Assembly: GCF_000160455.2 (NCBI RefSeq)
Contig: NZ_ACJX03000001.1
Span: 1,808,001 to 1,872,000 of the forward strand
DNA from: Acetomicrobium hydrogeniformans ATCC BAA-1850
Lineage (GTDB): Bacteria > Synergistota > Synergistia > Synergistales > Acetomicrobiaceae
Direction: 5' to 3'
DNA: 64,000 nt
The position numbers were made by a program, and so were the translations under genes. Shown piece after piece: positions 30,562 to 34,934 of the stretch. Each line of letters begins with the position of its first letter. The stretch's first letter is position 1. The notes below the pieces were generated by a model. The model worked only from the letters and a program-made list of their open reading frames with translations, was not told the DNA's origin and ran no database searches.

Positions 30562-31776
30562 ATGCTCAAATGGAAGACCAACAGAAAGGTTCTCTTGGGT
30601 ATTTCGGGGGGTATATCTGCATACAAGATCCCCGATGTTGTTAGTACGTTAAAGAAGTATAATAACGATATCGAGGTAATAATGACTCGATCTGCGTCTT
30701 CTTTTGTGACGCCCTTGTCCCTCTCCACATTGACGGGCAAAAAAACCTGGATGGAGGAGGACTTCTTAAGCGACCAACGTGGGTGGGAAATACCCCACAT
30801 TTCTTTGGCCGATTGGGCGGAAGTCTTCGTCATTGCGCCGGCAACAGCTAATGTAATCAGGAGGGCTGCCTTCGGAGAAGCAGAAACCCTTTTAGGGGCT
30901 ACCATGCTTGCAACGAGAGCACCGGTAGTAATTTTTCCTGCCATGAACATTCATATGTGGGAACATCCCGCAACTCAGCGTCATGTTAAGATGTCAGGTG
31001 AACTTGGCTACATCGTGATACCGCCTGAAGAAGGGTTCTTGGCTTGTGGATATGAGGGCAAAGGGAGGCTCCCAAAAAAAGAAGTCATACTCGAGATTTT
31101 GTGGAGGGTATTGTCCCCTAAGAGAGATTTAATTGGCAAAAAGATAATTGTGACCTCAGGGCCTACCAGGGAGTTCATGGACCCCGTCAGGTTTATCAGC
31201 AATCCAAGCTCCGGTAAGATGGGTTACGCTGTAGCAAGGACGGCATGGTATAGGGGTGCCGATGTCACGTTGATAAAAGGCCCTACATATATCGAGCCTC
31301 CTTTTGGTGTAAGAACAATAGACGTTACCACTGCCCAGGAGATGTACGATGCCGTATTAAAAGAGAGTGATGGCGCGGATATAGTAGTAAAGGCGGCAGC
31401 TGTAGGTGACTATAGATTTGCTCATACTTTAGATCAAAAGCTTAAACGAGAGGGCAGGGGCCGCCTCGAGGTAATCTTAGAAGAAAACCCCGATATTGCG
31501 GCGGAAGTGGGAAAAAGAAAGAGACAAGGGCAAATTCTGGTTGGATTTGCAGCCGAATCGACGGAAGTAGTAGAAAACGCCCTTTCAAAGCTCAACAAAA
31601 AAAATATGGACATGATAGTCGCCAATGATATCACGGCCAGGGGAAGCGGATTCGAATCGGATACCAATTCCGTAACGGTCATATGCAAGACAGGACGCAC
31701 CTCGAGGCTAGAAGGTTCAAAGGAAGAGGTTGCATGGGGCCTATGGGATATCGTTGAGGCGGAGTTTTTATCATAG
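30562..31776 (+). CDS. coaBC: bifunctional phosphopantothenoylcysteine decarboxylase/synthetase
   Basis: 404 residues. Coenzyme A synthesis. N-terminal CoaC flavoprotein: GISGGISAYK, active His in PHISLADWAEVFVIAPATAN, PAMN motif, and active Cys in FLACGYEGKGRL. C-terminal CoaB (from about residue 190): SGPTREFMDPVRFISNPSSGKMG and the KKNMDMIVAND lysine motif. Two bases before priA. Confidence 0.95.
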   Translation: MLKWKTNRKVLLGISGGISAYKIPDVVSTLKKYNNDIEVIMTRSASSFVTPLSLSTLTGKKTWMEEDFLSDQRGWEIPHISLADWAEVFVIAPATANVIRRAAFGEAETLLGATMLATRAPVVIFPAMNIHMWEHPATQRHVKMSGELGYIVIPPEEGFLACGYEGKGRLPKKEVILEILWRVLSPKRDLIGKKIIVTSGPTREFMDPVRFISNPSSGKMGYAVARTAWYRGADVTLIKGPTYIEPPFGVRTIDVTTAQEMYDAVLKESDGADIVVKAAAVGDYRFAHTLDQKLKREGRGRLEVILEENPDIAAEVGKRKRQGQILVGFAAESTEVVENALSKLNKKNMDMIVANDITARGSGFESDTNSVTVICKTGRTSRLEGSKEEVAWGLWDIVEAEFLS

Positions 31777-31778
31777 AA

Positions 31779-33578
31779 ATGTATGCCGATGTCCTTGTGC
31801 CTGGAGTTTGGTGGCATCCATTAACTTACAGAATATCGGCACCCGCGAAAATTGGCAGCAGAGTTCTGGTCCCTATGGGTCCGCGAGACAGCAAGAGATT
31901 GGGATTTCTTTCAGCGATAAAAGAAAATATCGAAAATAAGATTGTTTACGAGGTAAAAGAGGTAATTGAGATATTGGACGATGTGCCTCTTTTGGGGCAA
32001 GAGCTGTGGAGCTTAAGCGAGTGGACATCCCGACAATATCTATGCAGCCAAGGTGAGATATTAAAATTAATGTGCCCTACTCCCATCATCGAGGGCAGTA
32101 AAGTGAACAATATTCCTCCCCTTGTTTTTAACCCGCCGAAAGACGGCGATAGCGAACATTGCGTTTACGAGGTATACGATAATGAAAGATATGGACGCTA
32201 CAGGGAAATAATCGGCGAAGGCAAAAGCGGTCTCGTCTTCTTTCCTGAGGAATCGGTGGCCAGAACTTTTTGGAATGACCTTCCGGAAGACATTAAAAAG
32301 CAAGGCCTGTTATGGCCATCCAGCGGGGGCAAAAAAGCCTTTGAAGCGTGGCTGAAGGCTAGGCGGGGAGAAGTGTCTTTCTTGGTAGGGTCAGTGGGGT
32401 TGCTCTTCGCTCCATTATCCCCAATTAAGTTCGTTGTAGTGGAGGAAGAGGCCAGCTTTTCCTACAATTTAGCCCGATATCCTAATATATCCTTACGCCA
32501 TGTAGCAGCCAAAAGAGCTCAAATGTGGAAGGCGAAGCTAATCTTGGGAGGCAGGCTGCCATCATCCCGATTGTATTTCCTAAAAAAGCCAAAATTAAGC
32601 AAAAACGTTAAAGAACAGATTCGTTTCGTTAATATAAAGACTGCGAATAAAATTATTCTTCCGGGGATTTCTCAAGGACTTCCCATTAGCTCGTCTCTTT
32701 TAAAATCATCCCTAGAAGTCGTAAACCGCGGAGAAGTTGCGATGTGGATTTTGGACCGCAAAGGCTATGCCGGAGAGATATCCTGCGAGGAGTGCGGCTG
32801 GACCTTTGTGTGTAGTCATTGCGGCAGTATTTGCAGGATCAACGAAAATATTGTGATATGTCCCTTTTGCGGAAAAACATATGAAATGCCTACGATATGT
32901 CCATCCTGTATGTCCAGGCTTTTGACTGGTAAACGTCCGGGTCTGGAGGCGCTTCATGGAATAGCTCGAGCTCTGGCTGGGGACGTAGCACCGGTTTATA
33001 TGTGGTACAAGGAGAAAAGCGGAAAAAAACGTAAAACTGCAATGTTGCAAGAAATAGGAAAAGGCGGCCTTGTTGTTGGCTCTAGGTTGGCTCTTTCTCT
33101 TTGCGATGATTGTAATGTAGGTTTAATAGGATGGATCGATGCCGATGCCGAAACATGGCGGCCAAATTATAACGCTCGATTTATGGCATTCAGCATGATG
33201 TGGGAATCACGCTTCAGAGGTAATAATCCCAAAAGCAGAGAAGTTATAATTCAGTCCAGAAGGCCATATCATGGTTGGCAAAGGGGACTGAAAGATGGGT
33301 GGAACTTTTTTTGGGAGGATGAACTCAAAGAGAGGTACGAGCTTAATTTCCCCCCTTTCGCCCTGTTGATCGAAATATCTGCTCCGATAAAAGTAATCGA
33401 AGATATCTTTCTATTACTTGACAAATCCGGATTTGCCGTGTATAAGCCAATAGCTGATGAAGGCATAATATGGGTCAAAGCGAAAGATGCAAGGGTTCTT
33501 AGAGAGCTGTTGGAACCATACTTCCATATCTCGCGTTCTAAAATCGGATTCCCAAAGATAAGAATTTGGAGAGACTAA
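31779..33578 (+). CDS. priA: PriA-like primosomal protein, helicase motifs lost
   Basis: 599 residues, shorter than the usual 700-800. The N-terminal DNA-binding domain is present (ADVLVPGVWWHPLTY...VLVPMGPR), and so is the full zinc site (CEECG, CSHCG, CPFCG, CPSC, about residues 330-385). The helicase core is degenerate: the GxGKT loop is missing (IIGEGKSGLVFFPEE stands there), DEEH reads EEEA (residues 222-225), GSATPS reads GGRLPS, and the QVAGRAGR motif reads MWESRFRGNN. An ATPase-dead PriA is known from actinobacteria; here it would act as a structural loader in replication restart. Position between coaBC and der supports the identity. Confidence 0.85.
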   Translation: MYADVLVPGVWWHPLTYRISAPAKIGSRVLVPMGPRDSKRLGFLSAIKENIENKIVYEVKEVIEILDDVPLLGQELWSLSEWTSRQYLCSQGEILKLMCPTPIIEGSKVNNIPPLVFNPPKDGDSEHCVYEVYDNERYGRYREIIGEGKSGLVFFPEESVARTFWNDLPEDIKKQGLLWPSSGGKKAFEAWLKARRGEVSFLVGSVGLLFAPLSPIKFVVVEEEASFSYNLARYPNISLRHVAAKRAQMWKAKLILGGRLPSSRLYFLKKPKLSKNVKEQIRFVNIKTANKIILPGISQGLPISSSLLKSSLEVVNRGEVAMWILDRKGYAGEISCEECGWTFVCSHCGSICRINENIVICPFCGKTYEMPTICPSCMSRLLTGKRPGLEALHGIARALAGDVAPVYMWYKEKSGKKRKTAMLQEIGKGGLVVGSRLALSLCDDCNVGLIGWIDADAETWRPNYNARFMAFSMMWESRFRGNNPKSREVIIQSRRPYHGWQRGLKDGWNFFWEDELKERYELNFPPFALLIEISAPIKVIEDIFLLLDKSGFAVYKPIADEGIIWVKAKDARVLRELLEPYFHISRSKIGFPKIRIWRD

Positions 33579-33602: not shown

Positions 33603-34934
33603 ATGGAGAGGAATACCAATGTAGTTGCGATAATCGGAAGAGCTAACGTAGGCAAATCTACACTCTTCAACAGGCTCATACAGAAGCGTATGGCGATAGT
33701 TGACGATATCCCCGGTGTAACTAGGGACAGGCTCTACGCCCAAGTAGAGTGGGCAGGGAAGAGTTTTTATCTTGTAGATACGGGAGGGTTTCCGAACGAA
33801 GATGAACCGCTTTTTGATTTGGTGGGAAAGCAAATAGACCGAGCTATAGAAGAAGCCAGCGTTATCATCTTTGTTGTGGATGGTAGAGAGGGAATATTGC
33901 CCCTTGATTTCAGGATAGCCGAGATCCTTCGGCGAAGTAATCGCAGGGTGATTGTGGCCGTCAACAAGATAGACGAACCCATGCATGAACCTCTCCTGTA
34001 CGAAGCTTTCGCCTTGGGTTTTGAGGACGTGATTGGAGTAAGCGCAGAACACAACAGAAACATTCCGGATTTGCTTGATAAAGTTGTATCGTATATAGAT
34101 AGCGAAGACTCTTTTCAAGAGGACGGCAAAACAATAAAAATATCAATAGTAGGAAGGCCTAACGTTGGAAAATCCAGTATCTTTAATTCTCTGATCGGGG
34201 AAGAGAGAGCTATTGTCAGTAATTTACCGGGAACTACAAGAGACCCTATTGATACGGAAATTACTTTTGAAGGGAAAAAATATCTGCTCATCGATACCGC
34301 AGGATTGCGAAAGAAAAGCAGGCTCAAAGACGATATAGAGTTTTATTCTCTCCTTAGGGCGGAACGTGCAATCGACAGATCCGATGTGGTTTTGCTCGTT
34401 TTGGATGTAACGGAACTAGTCACTGATCAGGATAAGCGCATAGCCGGCATCGCCCTGGAAAAGGGCAAAGGGATTGTTGTTGCGATCAATAAATGGGATC
34501 TGTTGCCAGAGGGGCAGCCAAAACTGGGGGATAACATCATAAAAGATGTTAAAGATCAGCTGTATTTTATAAATGACGCCCCTATAGTCACTATATCAGC
34601 TCTATCAAAAAGAAATCTTTTTAAAATTTTTAATGTCTGCGGAGAGGTTTACGCTCGTTGGCAGACCAGGATTTCCACTTCAAACTTAAATAATATAATT
34701 CGAGATATAATATCTTTCCAAAGGCTTCCCTCGGATGGAAAGGGGAGGTTTTTAAACATATTTTACGTGACACAAGTTGGAACGGCACCGCCGTCTTTTC
34801 TCTTTTTCGTAAACGATAAAAACCTGGTCGATAAACCATTTGAACGAAAAGTTATAAACGAACTTGTAAAGGTCGGCGATTTTAAAGGAGTCCCAATCAG
34901 GGTTTTTTGGAAAAACAGGCGAAAACTCGCTTGA
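33603..34934 (+). CDS. der: ribosome biogenesis GTPase Der (EngA)
   Basis: 443 residues with two G domains in tandem, unique to this family. First P-loop GRANVGKSTLF with DTGGF; second GRPNVGKSSIF with DTAGLRKKSRLKDD; NKID and NKWD specificity motifs; C-terminal KH-like domain. Needed for 50S assembly. Last gene of the long run. Confidence 0.96.
   Translation: MERNTNVVAIIGRANVGKSTLFNRLIQKRMAIVDDIPGVTRDRLYAQVEWAGKSFYLVDTGGFPNEDEPLFDLVGKQIDRAIEEASVIIFVVDGREGILPLDFRIAEILRRSNRRVIVAVNKIDEPMHEPLLYEAFALGFEDVIGVSAEHNRNIPDLLDKVVSYIDSEDSFQEDGKTIKISIVGRPNVGKSSIFNSLIGEERAIVSNLPGTTRDPIDTEITFEGKKYLLIDTAGLRKKSRLKDDIEFYSLLRAERAIDRSDVVLLVLDVTELVTDQDKRIAGIALEKGKGIVVAINKWDLLPEGQPKLGDNIIKDVKDQLYFINDAPIVTISALSKRNLFKIFNVCGEVYARWQTRISTSNLNNIIRDIISFQRLPSDGKGRFLNIFYVTQVGTAPPSFLFFVNDKNLVDKPFERKVINELVKVGDFKGVPIRVFWKNRRKLA

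Follow-up and report, generated by a model that had tools for sequence, protein, structure and literature searches.

Helicase-type PriA proteins, represented by those of Escherichia coli and Klebsiella, the TIGR00595 family and the solved structures 4nl4 and 8fak, have a 3' DNA-binding domain, two helicase lobes, a zinc region with eight cysteines and a C-terminal domain. Their motor is described as well conserved, with Deinococcus-Thermus as a notable exception (PMC4504706). The PriA of Deinococcus radiodurans has no ATPase and no unwinding activity; it binds fork DNA (108 nM) and DnaB (PMC4504706). When the Walker A lysine of E. coli PriA is exchanged for arginine, ATPase and helicase activity are abolished, and primosome assembly and viability are spared (PMC4504706). 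The K230A variant has been used for DnaB loading onto forks in vitro, and the zinc region of PriA swings, forming a pore round the lagging-strand ssDNA and exposing a partner dock at which PriB docks (PMC10175261). The actinobacterial PriA (PRK14873) is another type in which the helicase motifs are absent.

The window analysed here is a stretch of 64,000 nucleotides from the genome of Acetomicrobium hydrogeniformans ATCC BAA-1850, a member of the Synergistota. It contains an open reading frame of 599 amino acids, the ATG of which lies 2 nt past the stop codon of coaBC, in the local order gmk-coaBC-priA-der-hup (Table 1). The predicted protein gives 148 bits with TIGR00595, under the curated cut-off of 230 bits, so that the helicase equivalog level is not reached, and up to 169 bits with PRK05580; the PriA models are the best scoring, yet all matches are below their curated cut-offs. 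At the N-terminus, the model of the PriA 3' DNA-binding domain, PF17764, is matched with 67.9 bits (cut-off 22.7). Among the solved structures of PriA, 4nl4 matches the protein with E=5.5e-37 (amino acids 22-112 and 144-566), and 8fak does so as well. Profiles, solved structures and gene position thus all identify the protein as a PriA orthologue. Near-relative PriAs with 99% and 97% identity are found in metagenome-assembled genomes of Acetomicrobium. A profile search of the Acetomicrobium genome (99.9% complete) with TIGR00595 gave no second PriA, and the protein is not, as would be conceivable, a relic beside a full PriA. Among the other weak TIGR00595 matches, one was verified to be RecG, and two more resemble Mfd and a UvrB-type protein in size and in the region matched.

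Table 1 Features of priA and its neighbours in the window (positions are those of the window)
Feature	Position	Strand	Basis or remark
coaBC, conserved neighbour upstream	30562..31776	+	ORF, gene order
priA, predicted pseudohelicase-type replication restart protein	31779..33578	+	ORF, family matches, sole PriA of genome
3' DNA-binding domain, aa 4-100, kept	31788..32078	+	PF17764; Tyr17, Gly26 and Pro100 invariant across the phylum
Short linker, aa 101-130, where E. coli PriA has the winged helix and the stretch ahead of motif I	32079..32168	+	Alignment
Former Walker A, aa 131-141	32169..32201	+	Catalytic Lys replaced by Arg137; Arg in 94/94 Synergistota
Former Walker B / DEEH box, aa 222-225, EEEA	32442..32453	+	His lost, triplet still acidic
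Former motif III GSATPS, aa 257-263, GGRLPSS	32547..32567	+	Alignment (E. coli GSATPA)
Zinc region, aa 336-377, eight Cys	32784..32909	+	100% in 94 sequences
Former motif V, aa 434-441, GTQMLAKG to GSRLALSL	33078..33101	+	Alignment
Former motif VI, aa 476-483, QVAGRAGR to ESRFRGNN	33204..33227	+	Lineage motif ES.WRG instead
End of lobe 2 and C-terminal domain, aa 511-599	33309..33575	+	F511, E515, R519, P525 and P526 as in helicase-type PriA
der, neighbour downstream	33603..34934	+	ORF, gene order

The window protein shares with helicase-type PriA the domain plan described above, and differs from it in being without the motor motifs and the winged helix. It was compared with E. coli PriA and with 94 PriAs extracted from all 12 families of Synergistota, f11 and f12 being outgroup lineages. 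The Walker A sequence GVTGSGKTEVY of E. coli is replaced by EVYDNERYGRY, with loss of all glycines of the loop and with R137 in place of K230, a position occupied by lysine in 87/87 helicase-type PriAs. The threonine following the lysine, the serine and threonine of motif III, the Lys-Gly of motif V and R587 of motif VI are also gone. Ser356 of motif III is replaced by glycine in 89/94 Synergistota sequences, P261 and S262 being 99% kept, and in the sequence that replaces motif VI in the order S477 is 100% and G481 99% conserved. Of the DEEH box the acidic triplet stays, with aspartate or glutamate at the E. coli positions 320, 321 and 322 in 94/94, 92/94 and 94/94 of the Synergistota sequences, respectively. 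The initial annotation had all helicase motifs of the protein degenerate, which is accurate for Walker A, III and VI, and extends to V, but goes too far for the DEEH box, only part of which is lost.

From these replacements, ATP hydrolysis and DNA unwinding are predicted to be lost, and the window protein is probably a PriA orthologue turned pseudohelicase, that is, an ATP-independent fork-recognition scaffold that would hand DnaB to the fork. The retained acidic triplet may still provide some metal or nucleotide binding. It is conceivable, but improbable, that Arg137 and the triplet form a non-canonical site which binds a nucleotide, perhaps without hydrolysis, and thereby switches the zinc region between conformations: Arg137 is invariant and the triplet is kept, and R137, W323, W452, S477, G481 and R487 are lineage-specific invariants that arose in the order, some of them flanking the old ATP site. 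All glycines of the P-loop, its threonine and the residues of motifs III, V and VI named above have however been lost. The change of lysine to arginine alone kills the ATPase of E. coli PriA, and the D. radiodurans protein, which carries this change, has no ATPase either (PMC4504706).

The domains outside the motor were kept in part. All eight zinc cysteines (336, 339, 345, 348, 361, 364, 374 and 377, aligning with C436-C479 of E. coli) are present in the window protein and in all 94 Synergistota sequences, as the initial annotation had noted for this gene. Its statement that the DNA-binding domain remains applies to the 3'-binding domain; the winged helix, together with the stretch before motif I, is deleted. 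The region corresponding to E. coli residues 106-200 has a median length of 8 amino acids in the 94 Synergistota PriAs and of 150 in those of other phyla, and is short also in several other degenerate PriAs. Loss of the winged helix might weaken fork binding. A structure prediction made from four sequences (the window protein and L035-L037) had a pLDDT of 39 and a pTM of 0.30 and was set aside.

A role in fork recognition and loading, which was also the initial suggestion, is the best reading of this pattern of retention and is likely because the parts needed for it are the parts kept in Synergistota PriA. An abandoned fork or D-loop would be recognised via the leading-strand 3' end, and the exposed lagging-strand ssDNA would be clamped by lobe 2, the zinc region and the C-terminal domain. 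The protein would then act as a docking platform which brings DnaB, with DciA as the probable loader, to the lagging strand. Where the lagging strand is duplex, RecG or another enzyme would first have to expose ssDNA. As a guess, Arg137 could face the acidic triplet and form a salt bridge in place of the nucleotide, locking lobe 1. With such a protein it can be tested whether the zinc region and the recognition of the 3' end are the irreducible core of PriA, and how the lagging strand is opened when PriA does not unwind it.

The joint loss of winged helix and motor and the appearance of new invariants (W323, W452, S477, G481 and R487) could also be taken to mean that PriA has adopted another job, for example in a checkpoint, in transcription or in SSB-related scaffolding, and that replication restart runs without it. 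This appears quite improbable, as conservation is best in the 3'-binding domain and the zinc region, on which the recognition of forks and the assembly of the primosome depend, and the D. radiodurans protein with a like loss binds forks and DnaB (PMC4504706).

In the Acetomicrobium genome DnaB is present and RecG was identified. DciA, the loader candidate, is a protein of 162 amino acids encoded in the order dnaA-dnaN-recF-mnmG-dciA (L250:6755-7240; G000:C1 about 963254-963739); it matches Pfam DciA with 35.7 bits and is without an NCBIfam match. No DnaC/DnaI loader was found in the genome among the matches to the PF01695 family, the three matches being DnaA and, judged by reading of their sequences, a PhoH-like and a ClpX-like ATPase. 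Neither was DnaD/DnaB_2 found in the genome by a search in which the Bacillus subtilis and Lactococcus lactis controls matched. No association of the pseudohelicase form with DciA was seen in the survey of other phyla described below, DciA accompanying degenerate PriA in 11/14 and helicase-type PriA in 53/66 cases; since it is equally common beside both types, its presence gives no special support to DciA as the loader. At the search sensitivity used, a DciA match was missing in 28/188 Synergistota genomes.

The initial annotation had presented the loss as a feature of this genome. A priA gene was found by profile search in 176/188 Synergistota genomes and in 115/116 of those of good quality, and 94/94 of the extracted PriAs have arginine at the K230 position, intact zinc cysteines and no winged helix. 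A PriA with a predicted dead motor is therefore a fixed trait of Synergistota, seen in every member sampled, and chance is excluded because the arginine and the eight cysteines occur together in all 94. The predicted loss dates back to the ancestor of the Synergistota sampled, or further. No PriA above the TIGR00595 helicase cut-off was found in any genome of the order. In the outgroup Synergistota (L038-L042), four of the five genomes have a PriA that passes this cut-off although its motor motifs are lost, so that the TIGR00595 score alone misleads. Automatic annotation will label these four outgroup proteins 'replication restart helicase PriA'.

Compared with its near relative L008, the window priA has a dN of 0.023 and a dS of 0.095, giving a dN/dS of ~0.24, which is ~2x the value for der and coaBC, and constraint is similar over the helicase lobes, the zinc region and the ends of the protein. 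The dead motor thus appears to be a scaffold that is still needed, and the initial claim that the gene is under selection is borne out. The frame is intact in every complete priA copy fetched, the gene order gmk-coaBC-priA-der is conserved, and coaBC and priA are adjacent even in the outgroup class, confirming that the gene is intact in its usual place; with open frames in all relatives, a pseudogene or an assembly error is ruled out. That priA is a decaying, functionless relic on its way to loss, as its substitution rate of ~2x that of its neighbours der and coaBC might suggest, is extremely improbable for a sole PriA with intact frames, purifying selection, a conserved gene order and phylum-wide invariants which include the eight cysteines.

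The closest tested precedent is the D. radiodurans protein, which the initial annotation did not mention. Like that of Synergistota, the PriA of Deinococcus-Thermus has, throughout its phylum, arginine for the Walker A lysine and degenerate motifs I and II, with the DNA-binding and zinc parts kept. The Synergistota proteins differ from it in belonging to another phylum, in being known from sequence, and in the loss of the winged helix, of motif V and of motif VI, which is documented for all members sampled. Synergistota PriA is a further, much older case of the kind shown biochemically in Deinococcus. Synergistetes are not mentioned in the Deinococcus PriA paper (PMC4504706), and no report of a motor-less PriA in Synergistota was found in a literature search for which subscription journals were mostly out of reach. 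With the lysine fixed as arginine and the motor lost in another phylum, the K230R experiment would have been done by nature repeatedly or very anciently.

The survey of other phyla covered ~110 phylum-level lineages, with a single genome for each, and yielded 102 PriAs. A protein was regarded as clearly degenerate when it kept at most two of K230, D320, E321, R584 and R587. Ten of the 102 were clearly degenerate (L227, L235, L236, L237, L239, L242, L243, L244, L245 and L246) and four more partly so (L203, L231, L240 and L241), amounting to ~1 in 7 of the representatives; L249 is partial only because of a contig end and was left out of the degenerate set. For Synergistota and the phyla with such proteins the annotation 'replication restart helicase' would be wrong. 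Five of the other-phylum degenerate PriAs have arginine at the K230 position, as in Synergistota. One of these degenerate proteins with arginine, L239, which is also without the winged helix, could belong to Deinococcota.

The protein L244 is of the actinobacterial type (PRK14873, 770 bits). It shares with the window protein the absence of the helicase motifs, the retention of the zinc cysteines, its status as single PriA and the presence of DciA, but has tryptophan at the position of the Walker A lysine and no acidic box. The window protein reaches at best 61 bits with the PRK14873 models (cut-offs 812 and more), compared with up to 770 for L244. The loss in this genome, which had initially seemed independent of that in actinobacteria, may be independent or may share its origin: the residue patterns and scores differ, and a common origin of all degenerate PriAs is not rejected, the p-AU of a single clade of them being 0.337.

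In the PriA tree inferred with a mixture model, Synergistota were grouped with L231, L235, L236, L237 and L241, all of which are degenerate (92/89), and the actinobacterial protein paired elsewhere with L239 (100/94). Eleven of the 12 Synergistota were together in this tree, and a clade of all 12 was compatible with the data (p-AU 0.278). Joining Synergistota with only the actinobacterial protein was marginally rejected (p-AU 0.043), and the p-AU rose to 0.184 when L239 was included. The branches in the PriA tree are long and the grouping may be due to attraction; the FastTree tree split the Synergistota through long branches. The pseudohelicase form, defined here by the change of lysine to arginine in the P-loop and by a winged helix that is gone or changing, could tentatively be seen as one old form which predates Synergistota and is shared vertically with the neighbouring lineages G233, G265, G200, G206 and G214, a reading that we consider possible but doubtful. 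If it were true, replication would be restarted without a PriA motor throughout an entire part of the bacterial tree.

Synergistota were united in the RpoB and in the RpoB+RpoC trees (1.0; bootstrap 100), with the sister lineage not resolved. The L235 and L236 lineages were placed near Synergistota in the RpoB and RpoC trees with weak support.

A PriA-like gene was not detected in the surveyed genomes G218, G219, G221, G246, G264, G277 and G287, in which there were only weak matches of the RecG, Mfd or UvrB kind. These seven lineages may restart replication without PriA, may have very diverged copies or may be represented by incomplete genomes. The partly degenerate protein at L240:1018-2802 (G252), a PriA-like protein of 595 amino acids, is the reverse of the window case: the zinc region is cleanly absent (profile positions 213-270 and all eight cysteines), and the Walker A lysine and a DEES box are kept. 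The RpoB frames of L255, L263 and L269 (G281, G252 and G225) are 2465-2627 amino acids long and continue into RpoC; these apparent rpoB-rpoC fusions occur in three phyla which also carry a degenerate PriA.
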